From positions 1 to 64,000 of the forward strand of contig NZ_JAAQTO010000004.1 of NCBI RefSeq assembly GCF_011742165.1: a stretch of DNA of 64,000 bases. The letters are read 5' to 3'. Positions 37,111 to 54,798 of this stretch are shown piece after piece. The DNA comes from Billgrantia bachuensis (GTDB taxonomy: Bacteria; Pseudomonadota; Gammaproteobacteria; Pseudomonadales; Halomonadaceae). A model generated the notes under the pieces. It searched no databases and was not told the DNA's origin. It saw only the letters and a program-made list of their open reading frames with translations. Position 1 is the stretch's first letter; each line of letters begins with the position of its first letter. Made by a program: the position numbers and the translations under genes.

Positions 37111-37824
37111 TCAGGTCTGCTCCGATACGTAGAGAGCCCGAGCCCTCTCGAGGTGAGCCCGCATCTCCGCCACCGCCCCCGCCTCGTCATGCCGGCGAAT
37201 GGCCTCGAGAATGCGCCCGTGCTCTTCGAGGGTAATGTGCTCGTTACCCTTCCAGTGCAGCATCGAAGTATGAAAGTGCGCCAGCCAATCGAGCATGGCG
37301 CGACTCACCGCAATGAAGATTGGGTTGCCGGTGGTCTCGGCGATGGCCTGATGGAAGGCCATGTCGGCCTTGATGAAAGCCCCGGCATCGCGATTCAGCT
37401 CATGGCGCTGCCGCTCCACCAGCTCCTCCAGGCGCACGATATCCGCCTCCTCGGCGGTTCTCGCCGCGCGCGCCACCATGCCCAGTTCGAAGAACGTACG
37501 CGCCTCCTTGAGGTGCTCGAGCGACTGCGGCGAGCTCGACAGCATGTGCATGGCCGTCAGTTCGATTTGCGACAGCAGCCCTTCGGCCGTCGGCGCCAGT
37601 ACCCGTGGCCGCTGGCCATGCTGGATCGCCACCAGGCCCAGGCGTTCGAGCGATTGCATTGCCTCGCGTATCGCCGGCCGCCCCACCCCGAACAGCTCCA
37701 TCAATTCCCGCTCCGAGGGCAGGTGATCGCCCGGCGTGTAGTCGCCGTTCAGCAGCATGGCGTATAGCCGATCGAAGACGTCATCGGACAGCTTGCGACG
37801 GCTGATCTTCAAGGCATCACTCAT
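37111..37824 (-). CDS. FadR-subfamily GntR transcriptional regulator, second copy
   Basis: The 237-residue regulator has a winged helix-turn-helix (about 10-80, HLPSERELMELFGVGRPAIREAM) and an FCD domain (about 100-230) with metal-ligand Asp/His residues in KADMAFHQAI and EEHGRILEAI. It is a close paralogue of the regulator at 25.6 kb. It diverges from the apionate-type operon over a 193-base space that holds a promoter/operator block repeated ahead of the second TRAP operon at 49.8 kb. It therefore probably controls both, and perhaps itself. Confidence 0.88.
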   Translation of the reverse strand: MSDALKISRRKLSDDVFDRLYAMLLNGDYTPGDHLPSERELMELFGVGRPAIREAMQSLERLGLVAIQHGQRPRVLAPTAEGLLSQIELTAMHMLSSSPQSLEHLKEARTFFELGMVARAARTAEEADIVRLEELVERQRHELNRDAGAFIKADMAFHQAIAETTGNPIFIAVSRAMLDWLAHFHTSMLHWKGNEHITLEEHGRILEAIRRHDEAGAVAEMRAHLERARALYVSEQT

Positions 37825-37895: not shown

Positions 37896-37954
37896 CTGCG
37901 ACCATCGTCGTATTTGACAGAGACAGGTGATTATCATGTCATTATACCAGTTGC
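37896..37954 (+). promoter_or_regulatory. Promoter/operator block, copy A (apionate-type operon)
   Basis: This 59-base block matches the block at 49820-49878 in inverted orientation at about 56 of 59 positions. The identical part is 37912-37954 (43 bases). It contains TTGACA (37914-37919) and the likely operator core TGTCATTATACCA, and ends 63 bases before the ATG at 38018. Copy B ends 60 bases before its own ATG. Confidence 0.85.
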
Positions 37955-38017
37955 TCGGCAATTCCCATCTTTCCGGGTGCCATGTCCTGATCCAAGCAGA
38001 CCAGAGAGGAATTCTTC

Positions 38018-38845
38018 ATGACCACCATCGCGTTGATCGGTGCCGGCGGCAAGATGGGCTTTCGCCTGTCCCGCAACCTCAAGCCCTCGCCATTCGAGGT
38101 CCGCCACGTGGAGGTCAGCGAGGCCGGCCGCACCCGCCTCAAGGAGGAGCTGGGCATCGATTGCGTCGACACCGAGCAGGCGGTACCCGGTGCCGAAGTC
38201 GTCATCCTGGCCGTTCCCGACACGCTGATCGGCAAGATCTCCCGGCAGCTGTCGCCGCTGATGGAAAGCGGCACCATGCTGGTCACCCTGGATGCCGCGG
38301 CCCCCTTCGCCGGTCACCTGCCCGAGCGTGAGGACCTGGTGTACTTCGTCAGCCATCCCTGCCACCCGTCGATCTTCAACGACGAGACCGAGCTCGAAGC
38401 CAAGCGCGACTACTTCGGCGGCTACAAGGCCACCCAGCACATCGTCAGCGCCTTGATGCAGGGCCCCGAGGAGAGCTACGCCCTGGGCGAGGCGGTGGCA
38501 CGAACCATCTATGCCCCCGTGGGCCGCTCCCATCGGGTCAGCGTCGAGCAGATGGCGCTGCTCGAGCCGGGGCTCTCCGAAACCGTCTGCGCTACCCTGC
38601 TGGCAGTGATGCGCGAAGCCATGGATGAGGTGGTGAACCGCGGCGTCCCCGAGGAGTGCGCCCGCGACTTCCTGCTCGGCCATATGAACATCCTCGGCGC
38701 AGTGATCTTCGACGTGCAGCCCGGCGCCTTCTCCGACGCCTGCAACAAGGCCATCGAGAACGGCAAGCCGATGCTGATGCGCGACGACTGGAAGCGTGTG
38801 TTCGAACCCGACGAGATCGCCGACAGCATACGTCGGATCACCTGA
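38018..38845 (+). CDS. apnO: NAD(P)-binding oxidoisomerase, D-apionate oxidoisomerase-like
   Basis: The 275-residue protein has an N-terminal Rossmann motif ALIGAGGKMGFRLSRNL (residues 5-21) and a C-terminal helical domain like 6-phosphogluconate dehydrogenases. It has a distinctive VSHPCHPSIFND segment (about 109-120). Such proteins next to a RuBisCO-like gene and a DUF1537 kinase are D-apionate oxidoisomerases, which oxidise D-apionate and move a hydroxymethyl group to give 3-oxo-isoapionate. The name rests on this context as much as on sequence. It leads a three-gene operon. Confidence 0.75.
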   Translation: MTTIALIGAGGKMGFRLSRNLKPSPFEVRHVEVSEAGRTRLKEELGIDCVDTEQAVPGAEVVILAVPDTLIGKISRQLSPLMESGTMLVTLDAAAPFAGHLPEREDLVYFVSHPCHPSIFNDETELEAKRDYFGGYKATQHIVSALMQGPEESYALGEAVARTIYAPVGRSHRVSVEQMALLEPGLSETVCATLLAVMREAMDEVVNRGVPEECARDFLLGHMNILGAVIFDVQPGAFSDACNKAIENGKPMLMRDDWKRVFEPDEIADSIRRIT

Positions 38846-38858
38846 CCGAGGTCGACCC

Positions 38859-40124
38859 ATGAGTGATCGCATCCAGGCCAGCTACCTGATCGAGACCCCC
38901 TACCCGCTGGAGCGCGCCGCCGAGGTGATGGCGGGAGAACAGTCCTGCGGCACCTTCACCCGCCTGGCCAGCGAGACCGATGCGCTGCGCGAGGCGCACG
39001 GCGCGCGGGTCGAGCGCATCGAGCCGCTGGAGAGCCTCGACTCGCCCTCACTGCCCCTGCCGCCGCCCCCCGGCAACGGCAGGCCGGTCTACCGCCGGGC
39101 CCGGATCACCCTCTCCTGGCCGCTCGCCAACCTCGGCCCTTCGCTGCCCACCCTGGTCGCCACGGTGGCCGGTAACCTCTTCGAGCTCAAGGAGTTCTCG
39201 GCGCTGAAGCTGCTCGACCTGACGCTGCCGACACCCTTTGCCGAGGCTTACCCGGGCCCGCAGTTCGGCATCGCCGGCACCCGCGAGCTGACCGGCATTC
39301 CCGAGCGGCCGCTGATCGGCACCATCATCAAGCCCAGCGTGGGGCTGTCGCCGGCGGCCACCGCAGAGGTAGTGCGCGAGCTGGTGGCGGGCGGCATCGA
39401 TTTCATCAAGGACGACGAGCTGCAGGCCAACGGCCCGCACAACCCGCTCGAGGCGCGGGTCGACGCCGTGATGCCGGTGATTCGCGAGCATGCCGAACGC
39501 ACCGGGCACAAGGTGATGTACGCCTTCAACATCACCGGTGAAGCCGATGAGATGCGCAGGCACCATGACTACGTGGTGGCTGCCGGCGGCAGCTGCGTGA
39601 TGGTCGCCCTGAATGCCGTTGGCCTTGCCGGCGTGACCCAACTGCGCCGCCACTGCCAGGTGGCCCTGCATGGCCATCGCGCCGGCTGGGGGATGTTCAG
39701 CCGCTCGCCGCACCTGGGCATGAGCTTCGTGGCCTACCAGAAGCTGTGGCGCCTGGCCGGCGTCGACCATATCCACGTCAACGGCCTGCACAACAAGTTC
39801 AGCGAGGAGGACGCCAGCGTGATCGCCAGCGCCCGCACCTGCCTGACGCCGATGTTCGACCCACCCGCGCCGGGCTGCGAGGTGATGCCGGTGTTCTCCT
39901 CCGGCCAGACCGCCGACCAGGCCGCCGACACCTACGCCGCCATCGCCAGCACCGACCTGATCTTCTGTGCCGGCGGCGGCATCATGGCCCACCCCGACGG
40001 CATCGGCGCCGGGGTACACAGCCTGCGCCAGGCCTGGGATGCCGCCGTGGCGGGCATCGACGTCGACGCCTACGCCCGCGATCACCGCGAGTTGGCCCGT
40101 GCCCTGGAGACCTTCCGCCGATGA
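38859..40124 (+). CDS. RuBisCO-like protein, probable 3-oxo-isoapionate 4-phosphate decarboxylase or transcarboxylase/hydrolase
   Basis: The 421-residue protein is a RuBisCO large-chain homologue with no small subunit nearby. It keeps the metal-binding loop with the carbamylated Lys (GGIDFIKDDE, about 178-187), the HGHRAGWG histidine (about 272), FSSGQ, and the phosphate-binding AGGGIMAHPDG. It differs from true RuBisCO in the KPSVG motif (KPKLG in RuBisCO) and in loop 6, which reads NGLHNKF. These changes and the neighbours ApnO-like and OiaK-like point to apionate breakdown (OiaX or OiaT type) rather than CO2 fixation. I cannot choose between the two activities. Confidence 0.82.
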   Translation: MSDRIQASYLIETPYPLERAAEVMAGEQSCGTFTRLASETDALREAHGARVERIEPLESLDSPSLPLPPPPGNGRPVYRRARITLSWPLANLGPSLPTLVATVAGNLFELKEFSALKLLDLTLPTPFAEAYPGPQFGIAGTRELTGIPERPLIGTIIKPSVGLSPAATAEVVRELVAGGIDFIKDDELQANGPHNPLEARVDAVMPVIREHAERTGHKVMYAFNITGEADEMRRHHDYVVAAGGSCVMVALNAVGLAGVTQLRRHCQVALHGHRAGWGMFSRSPHLGMSFVAYQKLWRLAGVDHIHVNGLHNKFSEEDASVIASARTCLTPMFDPPAPGCEVMPVFSSGQTADQAADTYAAIASTDLIFCAGGGIMAHPDGIGAGVHSLRQAWDAAVAGIDVDAYARDHRELARALETFRR

Positions 40125-41479
40125 CACCGACCGACAGCGCACCACTGATCGCCTACTACGGCGACGACCTGACCGGCTCCACCGATGTCATGGAAGCCCT
40201 GAGCGGTCAAGGCGTCGACACCGTGCTGTTCACCGCCCTGCCCGATGCCTTCCAGTTGGCGCGCTTCCGTCACTGCCGGGCCATCGGCCTGGCCGGCACC
40301 AGCCGCAGCGAAACGCCGGACTGGATGGAGCGTCACCTGACCCCGGCACTGGCCTGGCTGCGCGAGCGCGGCGCGGCGCTGTGTCATTACAAGACCTGCT
40401 CGACCTTCGACAGCGCCCCCCAGGTCGGCAGCATCGGTCGCGCAATGGAGATCGGCCGCCGTCTGCATGATCAGGGCTGCGTGCCTATTGTGGTCGGCGC
40501 GCCGCAGCTGCGCCGCTACACTGCCTTCGGCCAGCTGTTCGCCGCCGTCCGGGGCGAGGTGTACCGAATCGACCGGCATCCGATCATGTCGCGGCACCCG
40601 GTGACGCCGATGCACGAGGCCGACCTGCGGCGCCACCTGGGTGAGCAGACCGAGCTCGACATCGGCTTGATCGACCTGGTGATGCTGGCCAGCGACGAGC
40701 TCGATGCACAGGTCGAGGCTGCCCGCGCCCGGCATGCCGCACTGCTCTACGACGTGATGGATCCCGCCAGCCAGGCGGCGGTCGGGCGCCAGCTATGGCG
40801 CACACGTGCGCCGGGGGGAAGCTTCGTCGTCGGTTCCTCGGGCGTCGAGTATGCCCTGCTCGCCGAATGGCGCCGCCTGGGACTGGTCGAGGCCTCCCCC
40901 GGCGCCGCGTTCGCCGACACTTTCTCCAACCCTGGCCCGGTGGAGCGCATCGCGGTGGTCTCGGGAAGCTGCTCCGAGACCACTGCCCGGCAGATTCGCT
41001 GGGCCGAGGCTCACGGCTTCGATGGCATCCAGCTGGATGCGGCGCGCCTGGCCGACGATCGTCAGGCCGAGGCCGAGCTGGCAACGGCTGGCAACCGGGC
41101 CCTGACGGCGCTCGCAGCGGGGCGCAGCGTAATCGTCTACACCGCACTGGGCCCGGACGGCGGCCTGGCGAAGCTTTCCGGAGAAGATGGTGCGCATGCC
41201 ATCGGACGGAGATTGGGTAGGCTGTTGCGCGACCTGGTATACAGCCAGCGGCTGACTCGCGTAGTGGTCGCCGGGGGCGATACCTCGAGCCACGCCATCC
41301 AGGAACTCGGCATCCAGGCGCTGACCACCTGCCTGCCGCTGCCGCAGACACCAGGCTCGCCGCTGTGCACCGCGCACAGCAACGACCCCGCCCTCGACGG
41401 CTTGCAGATCGCCTTCAAGGGCGGTCAGGTCGGCGACGATGCCTACTTTGGAAGGATCCGCAACGCCGACCTCGACTGA
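40121..41479 (+). CDS. oiaK: DUF1537 acid sugar kinase, probable 3-oxo-isoapionate kinase
   Basis: The 452-residue kinase overlaps the RuBisCO-like gene by four bases. It has the DUF1537 N-terminal motif YYGDDLTGSTDVMEAL (about 12-27), KTCSTFDSAPQVGSIG, the C-terminal VVAGGDTSSHAIQELG (about 383-398), and the ATP loop FKGGQVGDDAYF. Linkage to a RuBisCO-like protein and an ApnO-like enzyme is the mark of 3-oxo-isoapionate kinase, which supplies the 4-phosphate for cleavage. It is the second of three kinases of this family here. Confidence 0.82.
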   Translation: MTPTDSAPLIAYYGDDLTGSTDVMEALSGQGVDTVLFTALPDAFQLARFRHCRAIGLAGTSRSETPDWMERHLTPALAWLRERGAALCHYKTCSTFDSAPQVGSIGRAMEIGRRLHDQGCVPIVVGAPQLRRYTAFGQLFAAVRGEVYRIDRHPIMSRHPVTPMHEADLRRHLGEQTELDIGLIDLVMLASDELDAQVEAARARHAALLYDVMDPASQAAVGRQLWRTRAPGGSFVVGSSGVEYALLAEWRRLGLVEASPGAAFADTFSNPGPVERIAVVSGSCSETTARQIRWAEAHGFDGIQLDAARLADDRQAEAELATAGNRALTALAAGRSVIVYTALGPDGGLAKLSGEDGAHAIGRRLGRLLRDLVYSQRLTRVVVAGGDTSSHAIQELGIQALTTCLPLPQTPGSPLCTAHSNDPALDGLQIAFKGGQVGDDAYFGRIRNADLD

Positions 41480-41555
41480 CGAAAACAGCGCATGGCGCCG
41501 CCATCGTGATGGCATCGGTCCACCACTACTGACCATTATTAATAAGGAAGAAAGG

Positions 41556-42863
41556 CTACTGGGAAAGAAAGGTTTCCAGTTTGGCTGCCTGCCGGAGTAT
41601 GCCGTCGAAAATGGGATCGCTGATCGCAGCGGGAAAGTCCCGAGGAATTCGACCAGCGACATCCGAAACGACAGGGGCGGCGCGCTCGGCGATTTCTTGA
41701 ATGATGCGGTTTACCTGGTCAGCAGAGAAGCCCGCCTGGCCTGCCGTGGTGATGAAGTGCCTGGGCTCCATCCTTGACCAGCGGTAATGGCGATTCTTGC
41801 CTTTCAATGCCATCGCCATTCTGGCCTTTTCGGGGGCCAGGCTGCCTTGGTTCATGAGGGGATAAGCGGATATCACATCATACAGCGGGGTCATGCGATA
41901 AGCGCTGCCCGGCTCGATGTAGAGACTGAAGTTCTTGGCATGACCGTCGATAGCCGCCATCAGCCAGAACAGCACCTGGGCCTTGAAGAACTGTGCCCTA
42001 TCCTGCCTGGCCTGCTGAGAGCCCAGCAGCAACTGCATGGCGGCCTGTATGCCCGGTCCTCCATCACTCTCGTACTTCAATGCCGGTGATACACCCAACG
42101 CCTGGCAGAAATCCTCTTGGGGAAGACGCATGAGCCAAGCGCCGTCTCTCGACCAACGCCGATCGAACCGCTCGACCACGAGCGCATCCTGCCCGCCGAA
42201 TCTCGCCAACTCGGCATGTGCGACAGGGAGTCCGAAGGCTTTAAGGAGCCGTAGGCAGAGCCACTCGTTCTCACCACTTTGTCGCAAGTCGATATTGCTG
42301 TGTTCCAGGAAGCCGATCGGCAACTTGAGTATATGGCTTGTCGGTGTACTACCGGAGGGGCGGTGCCACTGATCCCGATACCAAAGCAGGGCCGTCTTCT
42401 CCTGCGCACCCGCCAGCGAGATGCGGAAATCATCGTTCCGGCTCATCCCCAGCGGCGTCTCCTGATAGCCTGCCAGCAAGCTCTCGATCGACTGTTCATC
42501 CAGCGGGTCGCCAGTCATGTGCCTGACGTCCGGCACCGGCATCTGATCCGGATAGAGCTGTATGGCACCGATGCAGTCGCGGCCGATGCTGGCCAAGAAG
42601 TCAAATGGATGTCGGGTCGGAATCCGAAATCGAGCCTGCATCCGAGCGCGAATCGATTCCGCGTCCGGAAGAAGGTTGTCGAAGAAGTTGTAAACGACGG
42701 GCCCCCGGTAAGGCGCCATCGAGAGCGGTAACGACAACGAGATGGCGCGCGCACCTGGCCGGTTGACCCACTCTTCGAGATAGTGGAACGCCATGGCACC
42801 GGTTCGTGCCATCGACAGTACGCCAACCTCAATGCCATTCATTGCAACGGTGAGGCTCGCCAT
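41556..42863 (-). CDS. hipA: HipA serine/threonine kinase toxin
   Basis: The 435-residue protein matches E. coli HipA (440) closely. It keeps the phosphorylated loop LAGAQEKTALLW (about 150-161, Ser just before), the catalytic DGHAKNFSLYI (about 309-319) and the metal-binding TPLYDVISAYP (about 328-338). HipA phosphorylates glutamyl-tRNA synthetase and slows growth, giving persistence. It follows hipB by four bases. All key residues are intact, so it should be active. Confidence 0.92.
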   Translation of the reverse strand: MASLTVAMNGIEVGVLSMARTGAMAFHYLEEWVNRPGARAISLSLPLSMAPYRGPVVYNFFDNLLPDAESIRARMQARFRIPTRHPFDFLASIGRDCIGAIQLYPDQMPVPDVRHMTGDPLDEQSIESLLAGYQETPLGMSRNDDFRISLAGAQEKTALLWYRDQWHRPSGSTPTSHILKLPIGFLEHSNIDLRQSGENEWLCLRLLKAFGLPVAHAELARFGGQDALVVERFDRRWSRDGAWLMRLPQEDFCQALGVSPALKYESDGGPGIQAAMQLLLGSQQARQDRAQFFKAQVLFWLMAAIDGHAKNFSLYIEPGSAYRMTPLYDVISAYPLMNQGSLAPEKARMAMALKGKNRHYRWSRMEPRHFITTAGQAGFSADQVNRIIQEIAERAAPVVSDVAGRIPRDFPAAISDPIFDGILRQAAKLETFLSQ

Positions 42864-42867
42864 GGCC

Positions 42868-43128
42868 TTACCACTCCTGATCCCAGCCCCGCTCGTCAGC
42901 CGCCTTCGCTTCCGGCCGGTTGCGTTCGGTGACGTGCAGCTCGAGCTCCAGGGCTGAGAGTAACTTGAAAAGAGTTTCGATGCGGCTCCTCTCCGGATGG
43001 TTCTCGAACGCTGACACCGTCGCCTGCTTGATACCTATCAGATCCGCGGCGCCTTGCTGCGTCAGCTGGTGGTGGCGCCGTGCATTCTTCATCGACTGTG
43101 CCAGCATCTCGGGCGAGGTGATCTTCAT
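42868..43128 (-). CDS. hipB: HipB antitoxin, HTH repressor
   Basis: The 86-residue protein starts at the ATG at 43128, six bases after GGAGG; earlier in-frame ATGs lie inside the operator side. The helix-turn-helix is ADLIGIKQATVSAFENHPERSR (about 27-48), very like E. coli HipB (88 residues). The C-terminal tail ends in a tryptophan (DQEW) like the EW of HipB, which is needed for degradation and HipA contact. It neutralises HipA and represses the operon through the two sites upstream. Confidence 0.92.
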   Translation of the reverse strand: MKITSPEMLAQSMKNARRHHQLTQQGAADLIGIKQATVSAFENHPERSRIETLFKLLSALELELHVTERNRPEAKAADERGWDQEW

Positions 43129-43159
43129 GTGCATCCTCCATAGCGGATATTTCATTCTT

Positions 43160-43204
43160 TATCCGCACAAGAGGATAATAGCATGCTATCCGCTTTAAAG
43201 GATA
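43160..43204. promoter_or_regulatory. Two HipB operators
   Basis: Two perfect copies of the known HipB operator TATCC-N8-GGATA occur here: 43160-43177 (spacer GCACAAGA) and 43187-43204 (spacer GCTTTAAA). Their centres are 27 bases apart. They lie 31-76 bases before the hipB start codon, where bound HipB would cover the promoter. Confidence 0.93.
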
Positions 43205-43232
43205 ATAAACTAGAAATTGAAGCCCCCGTCGC

Positions 43233-44114
43233 TCAAGACTCGCCCAGCAGGGACACCAGCTCGGGCGTCAAGCGGTCGCCGTGACCGCGTGCGTTGATGT
43301 CGCGATACAGGGCGTCGATGGCCTCGGCAACGCCACGGGCCGCACCCAGGTCCTCGGCCATGGCGTGGTAGTAACCGACGTCCTTGAGCGAGTTGGCCAG
43401 GCTGAAGCGAAAGCCCGAGGGATCCCCGGAGACGATGAAGGGGCGCAGGCGCTCCAGCACCACCCCGCCGCCGCCGCCGTTGCCGAGTACCTCGAGGAAC
43501 ACGGCATCGTCGATGCCGGCACGCCGCGAGGCCGCGGCGGCCTCGGCGAGCACCGCGGTGAAGCCCAGCGACACGAAGTTGTGCAGCAGCTTGAGCTTGT
43601 GCCCGGCGCCCACCGGCCCACCGTGGGTAATGTGCTCGGAGAAGCTTTCGAGTAGCGGCCGCAGCTCGCGGAACAGCTCGTCGGAAGCGCCGACGATCAG
43701 GTTGAGGCGCCCTTCGGCGGCCTCCTTGGGGGTACGCGTCATTGCAGCGTCCATGAAGCGTCCGCCGGCCTCGGCAAGGCGCCCGGCGATCGTCTCGGTT
43801 GAGCGCGGAATGGCCGTCGAGCAGTCGACGACCACCGCACCGGCCCGCAGCCCTTCGAGCACGCCGCCGGCATCGAACAGCACGCTCTCCACCTGGGGCG
43901 TGCCGGTGACGCAGAGAATCACCACCTCGGCATCGGCGGCGACTTCCCGGGCACTCGACCGGCTCACCGCACCGGCCGCCAGCAGGTCGTCGACCGGCTG
44001 GTTGCCGGGATGATCGAGAAAACTCAGCCGGTGACCGGCGCGCAGCAGGCTCGCGGCGATGCCGTGGCCCATCAGCCCTACGCCGACCATGCCGACCTGA
44101 TAGGTCTTGCTCAT
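43233..44114 (-). CDS. NAD(P)-dependent beta-hydroxyacid dehydrogenase (GarR/HIBADH family)
   Basis: The 293-residue protein starts at the ATG at 44114. It has the N-terminal MVGVGLMGHGIAASLLRAGH (about 8-27), the substrate segment FMDAAMTRTPKEAAEGRL (about 117-134), and the catalytic-Lys motif GAGHKLKLLHNFVSLG (about 164-179). These define the 3-hydroxyisobutyrate/tartronate semialdehyde reductase family. It is the last gene of the second TRAP operon. Reduction of tartronate semialdehyde or oxidation of an acid sugar at C2 is possible. Confidence 0.85.
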   Translation of the reverse strand: MSKTYQVGMVGVGLMGHGIAASLLRAGHRLSFLDHPGNQPVDDLLAAGAVSRSSAREVAADAEVVILCVTGTPQVESVLFDAGGVLEGLRAGAVVVDCSTAIPRSTETIAGRLAEAGGRFMDAAMTRTPKEAAEGRLNLIVGASDELFRELRPLLESFSEHITHGGPVGAGHKLKLLHNFVSLGFTAVLAEAAAASRRAGIDDAVFLEVLGNGGGGGVVLERLRPFIVSGDPSGFRFSLANSLKDVGYYHAMAEDLGAARGVAEAIDALYRDINARGHGDRLTPELVSLLGES

Positions 44115-44172
44115 CTCGTCTCTTCTCCCAGTAGGTAAGCGTTCCTTTGAAACACCCAGCCCCCACCCTCGC

Positions 44173-45249
44173 TCAGGCTTCGTCCAGCGCCTCGGCGATG
44201 GCACGCCCCAAGGTCTCGGTGGTACCGCTGCCCTTTAGGTCAGGAGTCAGCACCGCCGGGTCGCCCTGCCCCAGCACCGTCTCGATGGCGCCGACGATCG
44301 CCGTGCCGGCCTCGGTCTCACCCAGGTGTTCGAGCATCATGGCGCCGCACCAGATCTGGCCGATGGGGTTGGCGATGCCTTTCCCGGCGATATCCGGGGC
44401 GCTGCCGTGAACCGGCTCGAACAGGCTCGGATACTCGCGCGTCGGGTTGATGTTGCCCGAGGGGGCGATGCCGATGGTGCCGGTACAGGCCGGCCCCAGG
44501 TCGGAGAGGATGTCGCCGAACAGGTTGCTGGCCACCACCACGTCGAACCAGTCGGGATGCAGCACGAAGTGAGCGGTGAGAATGTCGATGTGATACTGGT
44601 CGACCTCGACGTCGGGGTAGTTCGCCTTCATCGCCGCTACTCGCTCGTCCCAGTACGGCATCGAGATCGACAGGCCGTTGGATTTGGTGGCGGAGGTGAG
44701 CTTCTTCCGCGGCCGCGAACGGGCCAGCTCGAAGGCGTACGCCAGTACCCGGTCGACCCCGGTGCGGGTCATCAGCGTCTCCTGCAGCACCACCTCGCGG
44801 TCGGTGCCTTCGAAGGCTCGCCCACCGAGCCGCGAGTACTCGCCCTCGGTGTTCTCGCGTACTACCAGGAAGTCGATGTCGCCGGGCTCGCGCCCCTTGA
44901 GCGGGCTCTCGATGCCCGGCATCAGCCGGCACGGTCGCAGGTTGACGTACTGATCGAAGGCGCGCCGGAACTTGAGCAGCGAACCCCAGGCCGAGACGTG
45001 ATCGGGCACCGTGTCGGGCCAGCCCACGGCACCGAAGAAGATGGCGTCGAACCGGGTAAGGGTCTCGTACCAGTCGTCCGGCAACATGTCGCCGTGTTCC
45101 CTATAGTAGGCGCAGCTGGCGAAGTCGAAGTGCTCGAACTCCAGCGGCAAATCGAAGCGCCGCGCCGCCACCTCCAGCACACGCAAACCTTGGGGCACGA
45201 CCTCCAGGCCGATACCATCCCCCGCCAGTACCGCGATCTTGTGGGTCAT
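44173..45249 (-). CDS. Isocitrate/isopropylmalate-type dehydrogenase, tartrate/D-malate dehydrogenase-like
   Basis: The 358-residue enzyme has GDGIGLEVVPQG (residues 10-21), the NTEGEYSRLGG loop (about 133-143), the catalytic Lys in TSATKSNGLS (about 186-195), metal aspartates in ASNLFGDILSDL (about 240-251), and EPVHGSAPDIAG. The loop matches tartrate/D-malate dehydrogenases (TtuC/DmlA), which oxidise and decarboxylate 2-hydroxy acids. It is co-transcribed with an aldehyde dehydrogenase and TRAP genes. Its substrate here is unknown and may be a branched or C4-C5 acid. Confidence 0.87.
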   Translation of the reverse strand: MTHKIAVLAGDGIGLEVVPQGLRVLEVAARRFDLPLEFEHFDFASCAYYREHGDMLPDDWYETLTRFDAIFFGAVGWPDTVPDHVSAWGSLLKFRRAFDQYVNLRPCRLMPGIESPLKGREPGDIDFLVVRENTEGEYSRLGGRAFEGTDREVVLQETLMTRTGVDRVLAYAFELARSRPRKKLTSATKSNGLSISMPYWDERVAAMKANYPDVEVDQYHIDILTAHFVLHPDWFDVVVASNLFGDILSDLGPACTGTIGIAPSGNINPTREYPSLFEPVHGSAPDIAGKGIANPIGQIWCGAMMLEHLGETEAGTAIVGAIETVLGQGDPAVLTPDLKGSGTTETLGRAIAEALDEA

Positions 45250-45289
45250 CTCTGTCTCCCGGTTGGCTCAGTCTCTCGGTTGGGGTGGA

Positions 45290-46750
45290 TCAGCCGTGGC
45301 GGATCGCCACCGTCTTGATCCGCGTGTAGCTCTTGAGGCCCTCGAAGCCCTTCTCGCGGCCGTAGCCGGAGCGGCCGACACCACCGAACGGCAATTCGAT
45401 GCCGCCCGCGGCGCCGTAGTTGTTGACGAATACCTGGCCGCTGCGCACGCCCTTGGCCATACGCAACTGGCGGCCGCCGTCGCGGGTCCAGATACCCGCG
45501 CAGAGGCCGAAGTCGGTGCCATTGGCCAGCGCCAGGGCCTCGGCCTCGTCATCGAACAGCTGCACGGCCAGCACGGGCCCGAACAGCTCCTCGCGTAATA
45601 CCTCGTGCCCTTCGGGAATGTCGTTCAGGACCTGCGGCACCACGAAGTGCCCTCCTGACGGCGCCCCCTCCGCCAGCCGGCCGCGAGCCAGGGTGCGAAT
45701 GCCATCGGCGCGGGCCGCCTCCAGGCGGCTCTCCAGCTTGGCCTTCTGCCGGGCATTGATCAGCGGGCCGCAGTCGGCATCCGCCTCGCCGGCGTCGCAG
45801 AGCAGGGTCTCGAAGCGTTCGGCAAGGCGCTCCAGCACCTCCTTGGCGATGTCGCGCTGCACCAGCAGGCGGCTCCCCGCGGAGCAGGTCTGGCCGGCAT
45901 TCTGGATGATGCCGCGCACCACGAAAGGCAACGCCGCGCCCAGGTCCGCATCGCCGAACAGGATCTGCGGCGACTTGCCGCCCAGTTCCATGGTCACGGG
46001 CACGTGATGCATCGCTGCGGCCTGGGTCACCAGGGTGCCGGTTTCCGGCGAGCCGGTGAACGAGAGGTGATCGATACCGGGGTGCGCCGCCAGCGCGGCT
46101 CCGGCCTCGCGGCCCAGCCCCGGCACCACGTTGAGAACACCGGGCGGCAGCCCCTGCTCCAAGGCCAGCTCGGCCAGACGCAACACGCTCAGGCAGGCAT
46201 CCTCAGCGGGCTTGAGCACGATGGTGTTGCCGGCCGCCAGCGCCGCCGCCACGCAGCGCCCGAAGATCTGGGCGGGATAGTTCCAGGGAATGATCTGGGC
46301 GCAGATCCCATAAGGCTCGCGCAGGGTCATCACCGCAAAATCGTTCTCGAAGGGAATCGTCTCGCCGTGCAGCTTGTCGGCTGCCCCGCCATAGAAGCGG
46401 AAGTAACGCGCGCAGGCGGTGATGTCGCCACGCGCCTGGGTCATCGGCTTGCCGGTATCGGCGCACTCCAGGGCGGAAAGCCGTTCATGGTCGGCCTCAA
46501 TGGCCGCCGCAAACGCCAGCAGCCATTCACTGCGCCGACGGGCGTTCCAACTGGCCCAGCTCCCCAACTGGCCGGAGAAGGCTTGCCCGGCGGCTTGGAC
46601 GGCCGCATCGACCTCCTCCGCCTGGCAACGGGCAATTCGGGCGATCGCCTCGCCGCGTGCCGGCGCCTCGACCTCGATCGTGGCCTGGGTCGTCACCCAC
46701 TCGCCGCCGATCAAGGCCTGGCTGCGGGGCATGTCATTTTGTTCTGACAT
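45290..46750 (-). CDS. Aldehyde dehydrogenase family protein
   Basis: The 486-residue enzyme starts at the ATG at 46750 behind GGGAG. It has the catalytic Glu in MELGGKSPQI (about 253-262) and the catalytic Cys in QNAGQTCSAGSRLLV (about 284-298). The NAD loop FTGSPETG (about 230) and IPWNYPAQIFGR are also present. It oxidises an aldehyde to an acid. In the TRAP-2 operon it may process a semialdehyde or glycolaldehyde released during sugar-acid breakdown, but sequence alone does not say. Confidence 0.9.
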   Translation of the reverse strand: MSEQNDMPRSQALIGGEWVTTQATIEVEAPARGEAIARIARCQAEEVDAAVQAAGQAFSGQLGSWASWNARRRSEWLLAFAAAIEADHERLSALECADTGKPMTQARGDITACARYFRFYGGAADKLHGETIPFENDFAVMTLREPYGICAQIIPWNYPAQIFGRCVAAALAAGNTIVLKPAEDACLSVLRLAELALEQGLPPGVLNVVPGLGREAGAALAAHPGIDHLSFTGSPETGTLVTQAAAMHHVPVTMELGGKSPQILFGDADLGAALPFVVRGIIQNAGQTCSAGSRLLVQRDIAKEVLERLAERFETLLCDAGEADADCGPLINARQKAKLESRLEAARADGIRTLARGRLAEGAPSGGHFVVPQVLNDIPEGHEVLREELFGPVLAVQLFDDEAEALALANGTDFGLCAGIWTRDGGRQLRMAKGVRSGQVFVNNYGAAGGIELPFGGVGRSGYGREKGFEGLKSYTRIKTVAIRHG

Positions 46751-46806
46751 TGATCGTTCTCCCAATCAAGGAACTCCTGTGTCTTGCGTCAGTCCTGCGT
46801 CTTGAA

Positions 46807-48081
46807 TCAATACAGCAGATCGACCAGCCCCAGCGAGATCCACGGCATGTAGGTGATCGCCATGAGACAGGCGAGCACCACCAGCACGAAGCGCAGCAGC
46901 CAGGGAATCAACTGGTCGATGGAGAGCTTGGCCACCGCACAGGCGGCAAACAGATTGACGCCGAGCGGTGGCGTGAACATGCCGAGGGCCAGGTTGACGA
47001 CGACGATCAGGCCGAAATGCACCGGGTCGATACCGTACTGCACGGCGATCGGGGTAAAGATCGGCGCCAGCACCAGGATGGCCGCCGAGGTCTCGACGAA
47101 CATGCCGACGATCAGCAGCATGACGTTGACCGCCAGCAGGAAGGTGAACGGGCTCTCGAACACCAGGCTGACCCAGTCGGCCACCTGGGACGGCAGCCCC
47201 GAGCGACTGATCAGGAAGCTGAACAGCGCCGCCGCGGAGATGATCAGCATTACCGTGGCGGTCGCCATGACGCTCTGGCGCAGGATCGGCCACAGGTCTC
47301 CGAGGCTCAGCTCGCGATAGACCAGTCCTCCGACGACCAGCGCATAGACCACCGCCACCGCCGAGGCTTCGGTAGGCGTGAAGACGCCACCGTAGATACC
47401 GCCGATGACCACCACCGGCATCAGCATCGCCGCCCAGGAACGCCGGAAAGCGGCGAGGAAGGGAACCCGGTCGTCGCGGTCACGCAGACCGTAGCCGCGC
47501 ACCTTGCAGAAGAAGTAGAGGAAAACCAGCAAGGCCCCGCCGATCAGCAGCCCCGGGCCGATTCCGGCAATGAACAGGCGGCCGATGGAGGTATCGGTGC
47601 TGACCCCGTAGAGGATCAGCGGGATCGAGGGCGGAATCAGCACGCCGAGCTCGGATGACGAGGCCTGGATGGAAGCCGCCAGGGGGCGCGGGTAGTCATG
47701 CTTGACCATGGCGGGGATCAAAATCGAGCCGATGGCAAACGTCGTTGCCACACTGGAGCCCGACACCGCGGCGAACAGCATACAGGTGAGCACGCAGGTC
47801 ATGGCCAGGCCGCCCTGCAAGCCGCCCACCATCGACTTGGCCAGGTCCACCAGGCGCTGGGAGATGCCGCCGGCGGCCATCAGGTTGCCGGCGAGGATGA
47901 AGAACGGGATCGCCATGAGCGGGAAGTTGTCGATACCCACGAACATCTGCTGGGGCACCATCAGCAACGGGAACCGCGTGAAGAACTCGATGCCGATGAT
48001 AGACGCCAGCAGGATGGAGACGGCGATGGGTACGCCGACGGCGAAGAAGATGATCAGCGATAGACCGATGGCGAGATTCAC
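46807..48081 (-). CDS. TRAP transporter large permease subunit (DctM), system 2
   Basis: The 424-residue protein has the DctM layout of about twelve helices with PFFILAGNLMAAGGISQRLVDLA, SGSSVATTFAIGSILIP and GVLIPPSIPLILYG. It overlaps the small permease stop by four bases. It forms the channel for the acid bound by the DctP protein at 48.8 kb and precedes the aldehyde dehydrogenase gene by 56 bases. Confidence 0.94.
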   Translation of the reverse strand: MNLAIGLSLIIFFAVGVPIAVSILLASIIGIEFFTRFPLLMVPQQMFVGIDNFPLMAIPFFILAGNLMAAGGISQRLVDLAKSMVGGLQGGLAMTCVLTCMLFAAVSGSSVATTFAIGSILIPAMVKHDYPRPLAASIQASSSELGVLIPPSIPLILYGVSTDTSIGRLFIAGIGPGLLIGGALLVFLYFFCKVRGYGLRDRDDRVPFLAAFRRSWAAMLMPVVVIGGIYGGVFTPTEASAVAVVYALVVGGLVYRELSLGDLWPILRQSVMATATVMLIISAAALFSFLISRSGLPSQVADWVSLVFESPFTFLLAVNVMLLIVGMFVETSAAILVLAPIFTPIAVQYGIDPVHFGLIVVVNLALGMFTPPLGVNLFAACAVAKLSIDQLIPWLLRFVLVVLACLMAITYMPWISLGLVDLLY

Positions 48082-48707
48082 TGTCCGGACCTCCGAGTCG
48101 GTTGAGCGGTATCGTCGCCGTTCGGCACTATCGCGGATGGCGTCGGCGTGTCGTCTGCAGTAACCGGAGGCAGCGTCTCCGCGGGGGGTGCCTCGGCCTC
48201 GACGTCGGCCAGCCCGACGGCTTCACGCCCGGTGGCCTGCGCCACCAGCCGCGCCAGCACCGCCAGCACGGAGAAGCCGGCGCCGATGGGAATGGCCGCG
48301 TAGACCCAGGAAATTGAGATACCCAGGCCCGAGAGCATCTGATTGCGGACCCTGAACGTCATAGCGGTGCCGAAGTAGACCAGCACGGCAAGAGCGACGA
48401 GGCAGCCCAGGGCGATAGCTCCCTCGAGCAGGATCAGGCGGCGCGCGGGGATCATCTTGTAGATGACTTCGACCGACATCATGTAGCCACCGCGGAAACA
48501 GGCGGCGGCAGCGAGGAACACACACCAGATCATCGACGACCGGGCCACCACCTCCGACCAGGTCGAAGGCGCGTCGAAGACGAAGCGTGTCAGTACCTGA
48601 TAGAAGCCCGTGGTCACCGACACGCACAGCATCAGCACGGCCGCGGCAAGCGCCACGCGCGAGGTCGCACGTTCGAAGCGCAGGAACAGTTCCACCATGG
48701 TATTCAC
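48078..48707 (-). CDS. TRAP transporter small permease subunit (DctQ), system 2
   Basis: The 209-residue protein has four transmembrane helices in the first 165 residues and a disordered acidic, Pro/Thr-rich tail (about 170-209) not usual in the family. The DctQ pattern is TWSEVVARSSMIWCVFLAAAACFRGGYMMSVEVIY (about 53-87). It lies between dctP and dctM and overlaps dctM. Confidence 0.9.
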   Translation of the reverse strand: MNTMVELFLRFERATSRVALAAAVLMLCVSVTTGFYQVLTRFVFDAPSTWSEVVARSSMIWCVFLAAAACFRGGYMMSVEVIYKMIPARRLILLEGAIALGCLVALAVLVYFGTAMTFRVRNQMLSGLGISISWVYAAIPIGAGFSVLAVLARLVAQATGREAVGLADVEAEAPPAETLPPVTADDTPTPSAIVPNGDDTAQPTRRSGQ

Positions 48708-48757
48708 CTAGCGAGGGCCGCCCCCGGCAGGCACGTCGGGGGCGGCAGTGAACGCGA

Positions 48758-49759
48758 TCAGCAGCTGCTGTTACGGATACGATCCAGCATCTCGCTGCCG
48801 TACTCGTCGGTGAAGACCTTGTAGGAAGGCTCGACGGCTTCCTGGAACTGGGACTTGTCGATGTCCTCGACCACCGTCATGCCCTTCTCCTTCAGTTCCT
48901 CGACACCTTCGGTCTCGAGCCGCGAGACCATGGCGCGAGTGGCCTCGGCCCCGGCACGGGCGGCCTCGCGGAACCAGCCCTTCTCCTCGTCGCTCAGGCC
49001 ATCCCACATGATCGGCGAGGCCAGCATGATCGCCGGCGAGTAGACATGGCCGGTCAACGAGAGGCGATCCTGCACTTCCCAGAGATTGCCGGTGAGAATC
49101 ACCGAAATGGGGTTCTCCTGGCCGTCGACGGTGCCCTGCTGCAAGGCGGTGAACAGCTCCGGAAAGGCCATGGGAGTGGGATGCACGTCCATCTCGCGGA
49201 AAGCCGCCATGTGCATCTCGTTTTCCATGGTGCGGATCTTCAGGCCCTTGGCGTCTTCCGGCGTCTGAACGTCACGCTGGCTGTTGGTCAGGTGACGGAA
49301 GCCGTTCTCGGTCCAGGCCAGGCCCACCAGTTCATGCTCGCCCATCTGGTCGAGCAGTTCCTGTCCAATCTCGCCATCGAGCACGCAACGTGCCTGGTCG
49401 TAATCCTCGAACAGGAACGGCAGGTCGAGCACGTAGGTCTGCGGTACGAAGTTTCCCAGCGGGCCGGTCGAGGTGACCACCATGTCGATGGTGCCGATCT
49501 GCAGCCCCTCGATCATGGCGCGTTCCCCACCCAGGGCGCCGGAGGGATGTTCCTCTACGGTGAACTCGCCTCCGCTGAGCTCCTCGAGCTTGGCGGCGAA
49601 GGCATCGATGCCCTCCGAATAGTGCGAACTGTCTGACGTGGTGTGCCCCACGGTGACGGACTGGGCGGCCAGCGCGCCCAGGCTGGTGGCGGCCAGGGCC
49701 AGGGTCGAGACACCGGCGACGGCGGCATGCAGGGCGTTGCGAGCAAAGCGCTTGGTCAT
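48758..49759 (-). CDS. TRAP transporter substrate-binding protein (DctP), system 2
   Basis: The 333-residue protein has a signal peptide (about residues 1-32, ending SLGALAAQ) and a DctP fold. The substrate arginine is in GLKIRTMENEMHM (about 172-184), and PELFTALQQGTVDGQENP is present. It heads the operon dctP-dctQ-dctM-aldehyde dehydrogenase-TtuC-like-GarR-like. Its promoter region is a near copy of the one before the apionate-type genes, so the ligand may be D-apionate or a related acid. That is an inference from regulation. Confidence 0.92.
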   Translation of the reverse strand: MTKRFARNALHAAVAGVSTLALAATSLGALAAQSVTVGHTTSDSSHYSEGIDAFAAKLEELSGGEFTVEEHPSGALGGERAMIEGLQIGTIDMVVTSTGPLGNFVPQTYVLDLPFLFEDYDQARCVLDGEIGQELLDQMGEHELVGLAWTENGFRHLTNSQRDVQTPEDAKGLKIRTMENEMHMAAFREMDVHPTPMAFPELFTALQQGTVDGQENPISVILTGNLWEVQDRLSLTGHVYSPAIMLASPIMWDGLSDEEKGWFREAARAGAEATRAMVSRLETEGVEELKEKGMTVVEDIDKSQFQEAVEPSYKVFTDEYGSEMLDRIRNSSC

Positions 49760-49819
49760 TGTTATATCCCCTTGGGTGTTACGGCTTGGTGGAAATCGAC
49801 GACCCTCGGTCGCCAGTAC

Positions 49820-49878
49820 GCAACTGGTATAATGACATGATAATCACCTGTCTCTGTCAAATGCGACCATAGTCGCAG
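49820..49878 (-). promoter_or_regulatory. Promoter/operator block, copy B (TRAP system 2 operon)
   Basis: This is the inverted partner of 37896-37954; read on the minus strand it carries the same TTGACA and TGTCATTATACCA elements. The stretch 49820-49862 is identical to copy A over 43 bases. It ends 60 bases before the dctP ATG at 49759. Confidence 0.85.
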
Positions 49879-49919: not shown

Positions 49920-50885
49920 TTACCTTCCTGAATCGACGAGGAAAGCCTCGACAATTTCCTGGAAGTCTCTGTCACCTTCGAAGCCAAGCCGGTCGGCACG
50001 TCGAGTATTGAAACGGGTCGGCCAGCTGCCGACGATGGCTTGTATGCGCGCGTCCGGCTCGTGCCGAATGCGCTTCACGGCCGCCTGCCCCGCCAGCTCA
50101 CGCAACGTCTCCAGCATCTCGGCAACGCTAACGGTGATGCCCGGCAGCATGAAGGCCCTGAAGCTTCCCAGCACTTCGCCAGGCACCTCGGCCCCATGCA
50201 CCAGTGCCTCGACCACTTTGCGCGGCGACATCACGAAAAGGTCGAGGTCAGTCGGCACGGGACAGATCGCCTCCTCGCCGTTCAGTGGCTCACGCAGGAT
50301 GCTCGAAGCGAAGCTCGAGGCCGCGGCATTGGGCCGCCCCGGTCGGATCACGATGGTCGGCAAGCGCAGCACCAGGCCATCCACCAGGCCGCGACGGCTG
50401 TAATCGTTGATCAACAGCTCGCACATCGCCTTCTGGGTGCCGTAGGAGTTCTGCGGCTGCAGGGCGGTCATGTCGTCGAGGGTCTCGGGCAGCTCGCCGC
50501 CGTAGGCCGCCACCGAGCTGGCCATGACCAGGCGAGTAGCCGAGAGACCACGGCTACGGCAGCCCTCGAGCAGAGCCCGGGTAGCGTCGAAGTTCACCGC
50601 CAGGCCCAGCTCGAGATCGGCTTCCGCGGCGGAACTCACCACCGCCGCCAAGTGATAGATGACGTCGGGCCGGCCGTCGAGCATGGCATCAAAGGCCCCG
50701 GGAGCGGTGATGTCGCGCGCCTGGGAAACGATCTCTACGCCGGCCGCTTCGGGGGCGCCGGCCTCGAGCTGGTCGATCAGGGTCAGCCGGCGGATCGGCT
50801 CACCGCGGAGCTCGCCGCGCTCGAGGAGTCGCTGGATCAGGCGATGCCCCAGAAAACCGGCCGCACCAGTGATGGCGATATGCAT
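49920..50885 (-). CDS. denD: D-erythronate dehydrogenase
   Basis: The 321-residue protein is an extended SDR with TGAAGFLGHRL (residues 6-16), the catalytic SSVAAYGGE and YGTQK segments (about 123 and 147), and the DenD-type region RLPTIVIRPGRPNAAASSFASSI (about 174-196). DenD oxidises D-erythronate to a 2-oxo-tetronate. It is the last gene of the tetronate operon with ltnD, otnK, otnC and otnI, which together match the pathway known from other bacteria. Confidence 0.9.
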   Translation of the reverse strand: MHIAITGAAGFLGHRLIQRLLERGELRGEPIRRLTLIDQLEAGAPEAAGVEIVSQARDITAPGAFDAMLDGRPDVIYHLAAVVSSAAEADLELGLAVNFDATRALLEGCRSRGLSATRLVMASSVAAYGGELPETLDDMTALQPQNSYGTQKAMCELLINDYSRRGLVDGLVLRLPTIVIRPGRPNAAASSFASSILREPLNGEEAICPVPTDLDLFVMSPRKVVEALVHGAEVPGEVLGSFRAFMLPGITVSVAEMLETLRELAGQAAVKRIRHEPDARIQAIVGSWPTRFNTRRADRLGFEGDRDFQEIVEAFLVDSGR

Positions 50886-50921
50886 GGTGTCGTGCTTCCC
50901 GTGGTTGTGCTTGTGGTTGGT

Positions 50922-51731
50922 TCAGGGCCGCAGACCGTAGTCCCGCCCCCAGCCGAGCCCGGCGCGGGTACCTGCCGCGGGGCGATACTCGCAGCCGACC
51001 CAGCCGTCGTAGCCCAGCGCTTCCAGCCGTGTGAACAGCGCCGGGTAATGCACCTCGCCGACGTCCGGCTCGTGGCGCTGCGGCACACCGGCGATCTGCA
51101 CGTGACCGATCCGCGCGAACTGCCGCTCCAGATGGCGGGTCAGATCGCCCTCCATGATCTGGCAGTGGTAAAGGTCGAACTGCAGGCGCAGGTTGGGTTC
51201 GCTCACCTCCTCCAGCACCGCCATGGCCTGGGCCTGGCGCGAGAGGAAGAAGCCGGGCATGTCGCGGGTATTGATTGGCTCGATCAGCACCTCGCGATCA
51301 AGCTTCGCTGCCTCGCGGGCGGCGTAGCGCAGGTTCGCCACATAGCTGGCGTGATGCGCGGCCCTCGCTTCTTCTCGAGCGCGGCCATCGGCATCCGCCG
51401 GCAGCAGCCCCGCCATGGCATGCACCCGGGGGCAGCCCAGCGCCTCGGCGTAGCGCAGCGCCTCCACCACCGAATCGCGGAATTCCGCCTCGCGTCCCGG
51501 CAGGCTGGCCAGGCCACGCTCACCGCCTTCCCAGTCGCCGGGGGGCAGGTTGAACAGCACCTGCTCCAGGCCGCTCTCGGCCAGCGCCGCGCGCAGCGCC
51601 TCGGGAGTACAGGCGTAGGGAAAAAGATACTCGACGCCGCGGAAGCCTGCCTCGGCCGCCGCCGCGAAGCGGTCGAGGAAATCATGCTCGGTGAACAGCA
51701 TGCTGAGGTTGGCGGCCAGTCGTATCATCAT
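50922..51731 (-). CDS. otnI: 2-oxo-tetronate isomerase (hydroxypyruvate isomerase family)
   Basis: The 269-residue TIM-barrel protein opens with [20 protein letters not shown]. It has the metal and catalytic residues of [15 protein letters not shown] (about 148-162), [15 protein letters not shown] and GEVHYPALF. In tetronate clusters this family member isomerises 2-oxo- to 3-oxo-tetronate. It lies between the decarboxylase gene otnC and denD. The annotation as hydroxypyruvate isomerase (Hyi) would be the sequence-only alternative. Confidence 0.87.
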
Positions 51732-51777
51732 CGGCTCCTACGGTGAGGGCGAGCGCAGTCAGTTTTCGGGCATGAGC

Positions 51778-52425
51778 CTAGTCGCGAGGAAAACGCGCCT
51801 CTAGCTCCGCTACCTGCTCGGGGGTCAGGGCTCGCGGGTTCCTGCCGTGCAGCAGCAAGTACAGCTTGGCGGTCTCCTCCAGCTCCTCGGTGGCGTAGAC
51901 CGCCGCCTCCAGGCTCTTGCCGGCCACCACTGGGCCGTGGTTGGCCAGCAGCACGGCACTGTGCGCTCCCGCCAGGCCGCGCACCGCATCGCCCAGGGCC
52001 GGGTCACCGGGAATGTGATAAGGCACCAGCGGCAGCCGGCCCACGCGCATCACGTAATAGGCGGTAAGCGGTGGGATGCAGTCGCACGGGTCGATGTCGG
52101 GCAGGCAGGAGACGGCCACCGAATGGGTGGAATGCAGATGCACGATGGCCTGAGCCTGGGGGCGCTCGGCGTACATCGCCATGTGCAGGAAGTGTTCCTT
52201 GGTGGGCTTGTCGCCGTCCTGCCAGGCGCCCTGCCGGTCGAGCCGCGAGATGCGCGCCGGATCCAGCCGCCCCAGGCAGGCGTTGGTGGGCGTCATCAAC
52301 CAGCCGCCGTCATCCGTGCGCACGCTGATGTTGCCGCTGGAACCCATGGTCAGGCCGCGCTCGAACAGCGACTGACCCAGCGTGGCGATCTGCTCGCGCA
52401 GGCGGGTCTCGTCATGGATGCTCAT
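51778..52425 (-). CDS. otnC: 3-oxo-tetronate 4-phosphate decarboxylase (class II aldolase)
   Basis: The 215-residue class II aldolase has the N-terminal GLTMGSSGNISVR (about 24-36), the zinc histidines of VHLHSTHSVAVSC (about 95-107), and NHGPVVAGKSLEAAVY (about 160-175). OtnC decarboxylates 3-oxo-tetronate 4-phosphate to dihydroxyacetone phosphate. Its ATG overlaps the otnK stop by four bases, coupling the two consecutive steps. Confidence 0.92.
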   Translation of the reverse strand: MSIHDETRLREQIATLGQSLFERGLTMGSSGNISVRTDDGGWLMTPTNACLGRLDPARISRLDRQGAWQDGDKPTKEHFLHMAMYAERPQAQAIVHLHSTHSVAVSCLPDIDPCDCIPPLTAYYVMRVGRLPLVPYHIPGDPALGDAVRGLAGAHSAVLLANHGPVVAGKSLEAAVYATEELEETAKLYLLLHGRNPRALTPEQVAELEARFPRD

Positions 52426-53726: not shown

Positions 53727-53727
53727 T

Positions 53728-54715: not shown

Positions 54716-54743
54716 TGGTAGCGCTAACATGTTAGCGCTACCA
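54716..54743. promoter_or_regulatory. 28-bp perfect palindromic LacI-type operator
   Basis: The left half TGGTAGCGCTAACA is followed at once by its exact reverse complement TGTTAGCGCTACCA. Each half has its own AGCGCT core, so two overlapping LacI-family sites 14 bases apart are possible. It lies between ltnD (starts 54666) and the LacI gene (starts 54799) and can control both. Confidence 0.9.
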
Positions 54744-54798
54744 TTCTTGTAGTAGATCGGGATTGAGCCAGCAAGGCCCAGGGTGCAAGGTACGACCA

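Follow-up and report, generated by a model that had tools for sequence, protein, structure and literature searches.

The repeated block and the operons behind it

We analyzed a stretch of 64,000 nucleotides from Billgrantia bachuensis (contig NZ_JAAQTO010000004.1, positions 1 to 64,000; hereafter the window) in which one short block stands, in opposite orientations, ahead of two operons. The first copy lies at 37896..37954 on the forward strand, between the divergent genes for a regulator, FcdR, and an ApnO-like enzyme (the apnO copy); the second lies at 49820..49878 on the reverse strand, in the gap between denD and the transporter gene dctP (the dctP copy). In an ungapped alignment of 37896–37954 (forward) with 49878–49820 (reverse), 56 of 59 bases are identical, 43 of them in an unbroken run, just as an earlier note on this DNA had read the pair. 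That note also took both copies to be noncoding and to stand at nearly equal distances from a start codon, and the coordinates agree: the copies are intergenic (the first between the starts of fcdR, 37824, and apnO, 38018; the second between the end of denD, 49920, and the start of dctP, 49759), with 63 bases from the end of the block to the apnO ATG and 60 to that of dctP.

FcdR (37111..37824, reverse strand) carries a GntR domain (PF00392, 69.5 bits; cut-off 27) and an FCD domain (PF07729, 81.4 bits; cut-off 24.3), which makes it a GntR regulator of the FCD type, and it scores within the NanR subfamily (NF003011, 299.5 bits; cut-off 260). Divergent from it, on the forward strand, are the genes for an ApnO-like oxidoisomerase (38018..38845; PF16896 PGDH_C, 242 bits), an OiaX-like RuBisCO-like protein (RLP; 38859..40124; NF042437, 470 bits), and an OiaK-like kinase (40121..41479; NF042436, 483 bits). 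The label ApnO, which no family match supplies, comes from the earlier note and is presumed here. The dctP copy precedes, on the reverse strand, the dctM, dctQ, and dctP genes of a tripartite ATP-independent periplasmic (TRAP) transporter (46807..49759; TIGR00786, PF04290, and TIGR00787, all over their cut-offs), followed by genes for an aldehyde dehydrogenase (ALDH; 45290..46765; PF00171, 504 bits), a TtuC-family dehydrogenase (44173..45249; TIGR02089, 555 bits), and a GarR-like dehydrogenase (43233..44114; TIGR01505, 155 bits). Among the gene names proposed earlier, that of the TtuC family stands, its score exceeding the NCBIfam cut-off of 470; RLP/OiaX, OiaK, and GarR are right as resemblances only, OiaX and OiaK falling below the equivalog cut-offs of the D-apionate pathway (700 for each) and GarR below a cut-off of 341. 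Since these names stay under their equivalog cut-offs, the substrate can be named no more closely than as a probable sugar acid.

Within the block lies a 16-base core, the proposed FcdR operator (TGTCATTATACCAGTT at 37937..37952, forward strand, in the apnO copy; 49822..49837, reverse strand, in the dctP copy). Across 36 core sites gathered from the window's family with at most one mismatch allowed, 15 of the 16 positions are invariant. The core is asymmetric, combining a fixed right arm (ATACCAG) with a looser left arm (TCAT) and forming no full palindrome; its complement strand, AACTGGTATNATGACA, holds one GGTATA. A −35-like TTGACA stands 17 bases ahead of the core in the apnO copy (37914..37919, forward strand) and appears in the block alignment at 49855..49860 (reverse strand) in the dctP copy. 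TTGAC keeps this spot in 34 of the 36 family sites. One exception (G037) has it one base nearer the core; in the other (G132; L066 17334) the box is lost. In this last genome oiaK was matched only as a 117-base piece (15053–15169), and the sugar-acid pathway there may be decaying. Directly ahead of the −35-like box is an imperfect palindrome, CGACCATCGTCG in the apnO copy (37899..37910, forward strand; CGACCAWGGTCG in near relatives) and CGACTATGGTCG in the block alignment of the dctP copy (49864..49875, reverse strand). Its left arm is widely kept in the family, while the right arm varies. Downstream of the block, the dctP leader contains a GC-rich, hairpin-like repeat without a T run (49760–49819 in the window; approximately 4280–4340 in L017), visible by eye in many genomes of the same gene layout, block present or not.

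The block is rare in its own genome. A 38-base piece of it, with up to three mismatches, has two matches in the window and none in any of 100 shuffles, and a BLAST search of the whole genome (4.70 Mb, 80 contigs, E ≤0.001) returned these two places only. The core, written TGTCATNATACCAGTT, likewise has two exact sites there and none with one or two mismatches, and a wider regulon within this genome is accordingly rejected; at three mismatches there are 14 more sites, with 38 in all for the reversed control. A small mobile or repeated element can hardly be entertained on such numbers. Copying of the block within a genome has its place in such a reading, but it occurred once; the window's genome has two copies, and exact core sites never exceed two in any of 275 genomes surveyed.

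Co-occurrence of the core and FcdR

A survey of the window's family suggests which regulator reads the block. Exact core sites were found in 31 of the 275 family genomes (36 sites), against 0/275 for the reversed core. A search for FcdR recovered matches at 67–100% identity in 31 of the same genomes; the next matches, in 15 genomes, drop to 46–50%. The two sets of 31 genomes are identical, and the exact 16-base core is absent from the 244 others, so that site and ortholog occur together or not at all (31/31 vs. 0/244). Thirty-one of the sites lie between fcdR and apnO, one in every family genome with the regulator, and five lie ahead of dctP; an apnO-like gene neighbors the FcdR ortholog in 31/31.

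The 15 genomes with a relative at 46–50% identity lack the exact core, which at first sight speaks against a link between site and regulator. However, the variant TGTCATNATACCA occurs within approximately 6 kb of that relative in 15/15 (each side was scanned over this distance, or less where the contig ends), compared with 0/15 for the reversed control. In these stretches (L228–L242), TGTCATNATACCA is mostly followed by A where the core has G, and apnO-like matches at 39–45% identity were found in 14 of the 15. These proteins would form a sister group of regulators whose operator has changed slightly, a contrast that could help to find the residues that read the G/A base.

The association extends beyond the family. 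Sixty-eight RLP loci were compared, after 12 of an initial 80 had been dropped as members of the window's family (L111 and L112 probably duplicate G031 and G026 and were counted once). With up to two mismatches, the core occurs in 20/29 loci that have an fcdR relative (43–65% identical) and in 0/39 that do not, and the reversed control in none of either; among loci of at least 17 kb, the counts are 17/24 and 0/24. A 12-base core, shortened after the same loci had been viewed, gave 21/29 and 0/39 and was replaced by the 16-base core set within the family. Five of the outside loci hold two core sites, and in three of these, from Stappia (L156, L165, and L173), one site stands ahead of dctP beside a more distant GntR gene (28–29% identical to FcdR).

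On this comparative evidence the block is best read as an operator-promoter of FcdR, and FcdR very probably reads it. The earlier proposal that the apnO/RLP/oiaK genes and the dctPQM operon form one regulon under the GntR/FCD regulator draws strong support from the three comparisons together (31/31 vs. 0/244; 20/29 vs. 0/39; 15/15), and the two operons are probably switched together. Alternatively, some other regulator might act at the block, perhaps through the CGACCAWGGTCG palindrome, with FcdR a neighbor by chance. Such a reading could draw on the palindrome, a second conserved element that directly precedes the −35-like box across the family, and on the Stappia dctP site, whose possible owner is the distant GntR gene beside it. 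But outside the family the core tracks fcdR despite changed gene order, as it does in the sister group, and in the Aromatoleum and Azoarcus loci no such palindrome is apparent by eye; we consider this alternative distinctly improbable. The family-specific palindrome may be the site of a further regulator acting in addition to FcdR.

Several observations nonetheless count against an FcdR operator-promoter. Nine of the 29 outside loci with an fcdR relative miss the core at two mismatches, and when three are allowed (24/29 and 2/39, with 1 and 2 for the control), two loci without fcdR have it. Related genomes are also not independent events, and in the 12 family genomes with dctPQM directly after apnO the transporter is a more distant one (dctP 52–56% identical). 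A promoter scan of both copies found no promoter and no canonical sigma-70 sequence; a −10 hexamer having A as its second and T as its sixth base was found in neither copy, and the best candidate, TGTCAT at a 17-base spacing, matches the consensus at 4/6 positions and lacks the key A. Given so poor a hexamer at this spacing, the operator may overlap a weak −10, an arrangement that would fit a repressor. Finally, the block holds a single GGTATA rather than the two or three repeats of a NanR-type operator.

The relation to NanR is therefore best considered directly. FcdR matches the E. coli NanR structure 6on4 (E 7e-43), with the DNA-binding domain aligned, and shares with it the NCBIfam subfamily, a GGTATA on the complement strand of the core, and the reuse of one operator ahead of several operons. 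In PMC8012715, E. coli NanR is described as reading GGTATA repeats in an asymmetric pose, with (GGTATA)3 as its operator, and as binding a single repeat poorly. The two systems differ in several respects: three repeats stand in the NanR operator and one here; FcdR residue 7 aligns to NanR residue 27, so that most of the N-terminal extension of NanR is absent; and NanR accompanies sialic-acid genes whereas FcdR accompanies sugar-acid genes. The single GGTATA, together with the fixed right and looser left arm, suggests a mode of DNA reading probably related to that of NanR, not identical to it. Because the neighbors of FcdR are sugar-acid genes in all 31 family genomes, the name NanR would mislead, and its automatic assignment to the FcdR group is likely a systematic misnaming.

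FCD regulators of the FadR, UxuR, and LldR types are commonly divergent from their own operon, with an operator over the promoter and one local regulon. FcdR shares this layout, this operator placement, and the local scope, and differs in an asymmetric core instead of a full palindrome. In the literature searched (apionate, gene conversion of bacterial promoters, and sugar-acid topics, judged by title and the start of the abstract), the core operator was not found in print. The regulator group is widespread, and automatic annotation would call it NanR; the present analysis gives it a testable operator and ties an RLP pathway to its TRAP transporter.

Origin and likeness of the two copies

The apnO copy is general among family genomes with the regulator, and the dctP copy is not. 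A search of related genomes, as the earlier note had advised, recovered the former in 31/31 and the latter in five. In 15 of the 31, dctPQM lies downstream within the apnO operon, behind a single block, either after oiaK (G055, G043, and G044) or directly after apnO (12 genomes). The remaining 16 have the convergent layout of the window, 11 with one block and five with two (G000, G052, G031, G026, and G050); in the 11, the denD–dctP gap contains no block. In a joined tree of nine proteins from 19 genomes, the five two-block genomes form one clade (support 96/97). They are probably a single clade, as judged from these sequences, and a single copying event probably gave rise to the dctP copy. 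Some of the data pull the other way: a six-protein tree leaves the five unresolved and needs two changes, only 34% of its bootstrap trees joining them, which makes a single gain likely rather than certain. The six-protein data do not reject a single clade (approximately unbiased [AU] test, 0.375). The earlier suggestion that the copies were either selected or recently copied appears to hold on both counts, the core being kept in all 36 family sites and the dctP copy being limited to five related genomes.

Placing a regulatory region ahead of a gene that had another one resembles intergenic-region switching, or horizontal regulatory transfer, which Oren reportedly described in 2014, as cited in PMC5890482. 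That paper notes that a region switched in this way may come from another place in the genome it enters. The present case differs: the source copy is retained, 12 kb from the new one, the operon captured is part of the same cluster, and the copies seem to stay homogenized.

Over 58 aligned columns, the two copies within a genome differ at 3 positions in G000, 2 in G052, 1 in G031, 1 in G026, and 16 in G050. Orthologous copies compared across the G050 split differ more than the pairs in the first four genomes, at 9–10 positions for dctP and 12–14 for apnO. The apnO copy of G050 has letters of the one-operon genomes (CCAAGG, TTATAT), whereas the other four apnO copies have dctP-type letters. In a tree of the blocks, the two G000 copies pair (93/86) and the G050 apnO copy falls outside the other nine (87/89). 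This tree used 20 of the 33 rows that remained once G090, G037, and G132 (changes in block length) and the Aromatoleum and Azoarcus loci had been set aside. Uniting the five apnO copies in one clade gives AU 0.036, and separate evolution of the two copies is rejected against the free tree at AU 0.0185. One conversion after the G050 split gives AU 0.118, and a second in G000 raises this to 0.45; independent insertion in G050 is weakly rejected (AU 0.048; Shimodaira–Hasegawa [SH] test, 0.10). Of 120 simulations of separate evolution, not one produced a likelihood gap as large as that observed. In four of the five genomes, then, the copies appear too similar for separate evolution, and the data point to recombination between them in the form of gene conversion.

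Gene conversion between bacterial repeats is familiar from tuf genes and rRNA operons, where paralogs are more alike than their history allows. The block copies within one genome seem to show the same excess likeness, over a tract of approximately 57 bases of control DNA instead of genes. Against conversion, the data allow the five dctP copies to form one clade (AU 0.163), and the SH (0.064) and Kishino–Hasegawa (0.052) tests do not reject separate evolution; simple distance statistics were matched in 40 and in 20 of the 120 simulations; and the tests, which were chosen after the alignment had been seen, concern 58 columns in five genomes.

Selection toward one optimum, with neither copying nor conversion, could also have made the copies alike. 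It would account for the near invariance of the core across the family, and, where the four close genomes are more diverged from one another, the block is far better conserved than its flanks; orthologous blocks of these four are identical at 53–58/58 positions, with flanks less alike except in the near-identical pair G031–G026. Better kept blocks than flanks indicate that selection acts too. Selection alone fits less well with the 11-base spacer after TTGACA, which varies between family groups, although the two copies of G000, of G031, and of G026 agree throughout it and those of G052 have a single mismatch. Nor does it fit well with the five outside loci holding two sites, whose pairs share little past the core (8–17/47 other positions), or with the dctP copy of G050, which is nearer to other genomes' copies (9–11 differences) than to the apnO copy of its own genome (16). 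We judge this explanation unlikely.

The earlier note had also raised the possibility that the copies recombine and invert the 12 kb between them. Inverted orientation and 43 identical bases suffice for rare homologous recombination, and since each operon would still have a block after the flip, such an inversion could be silent or neutral. No sign of one was seen, however: the orientation is the same in 5/5 two-copy genomes and in all 16 convergent genomes searched for an inverted 37.9–49.9 kb segment, and the proteins scanned near the blocks include no recombinase. An invertible switch is rejected as very unlikely.

We favor with good confidence, from comparative sequence evidence, an FcdR-read operator-promoter cassette ahead of both apnO and dctP, copied in the ancestor of the five genomes and apparently converted after the G050 split. 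Before the copying, dctPQM was probably read through from the upstream ltnD–otn–denD genes, which have their own LacI-type regulator, as gene order suggests for the 11 one-block genomes. A copy of the cassette would then have been placed between denD and dctP, and, after G050 had split off, recombination between the inverted copies would have overwritten one with the other, keeping the promoters near-identical. FcdR would bind the core, covering the start region of both promoters, and repress them until a sugar acid or pathway intermediate occupies the FCD domain; the enzymes (apnO–RLP–kinase) and the uptake and processing operon (dctPQM–ALDH–ttuC–garR) would then be induced jointly. More tentatively, and at slightly under even chances, a promoter-operator of approximately 57 bases captured the transporter operon through copying within the genome and has since been kept near-identical to its source by repeated conversion, after the G050 split and again in the window's lineage.

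The locus is probably an ordinary regulon with an uncommon evolutionary twist, one operator being general and the other, limited to a few salt-loving relatives, probably capturing a transporter operon. The transporter would come under the same regulator by different routes: within the apnO operon in 15/31 family genomes, behind a copied promoter in 5/31, and perhaps, in the three Stappia loci, behind a separate dctP site that shares only the core. If conversion is true, short control sequences of one regulon can be homogenized as tuf and rRNA genes are, which bears on how regulons stay coherent; if it is repeated, two promoters may evolve as one unit, with the regulator and both operators coevolving in step.

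Neighboring genes

Upstream of the dctP copy, on the same strand, lie the erythronate/threonate genes denD–otnI–otnC–otnK–ltnD (49920..54666, reverse strand; NF043036, NF043033, NF043034, NF043035, and NF043037, all over their cut-offs). The LacI-type regulator is an open reading frame (ORF) at 54763–55830, divergent from ltnD, and a perfect 28-base palindrome, TGGTAGCGCTAACATGTTAGCGCTACCA, occupies 54716–54743 between the two. A related, TTAGCGCTAACA-type palindrome is among the top three ahead of ltnD in 11 of 12 genomes checked, with two mismatches in G052; G131 is without it.

Between oiaK and garR, the window contains a gene for a HipA toxin (PF07804), preceded by a small HTH-like gene (42868–43155, HipB-like by eye); together they span 41556–43155 on the reverse strand. 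Among the 16 convergent genomes this pair is confined to that of the window; G091, G037, and G017 have other ORFs in its place, which by eye look lumazine-synthase-like and enolase-superfamily-like.

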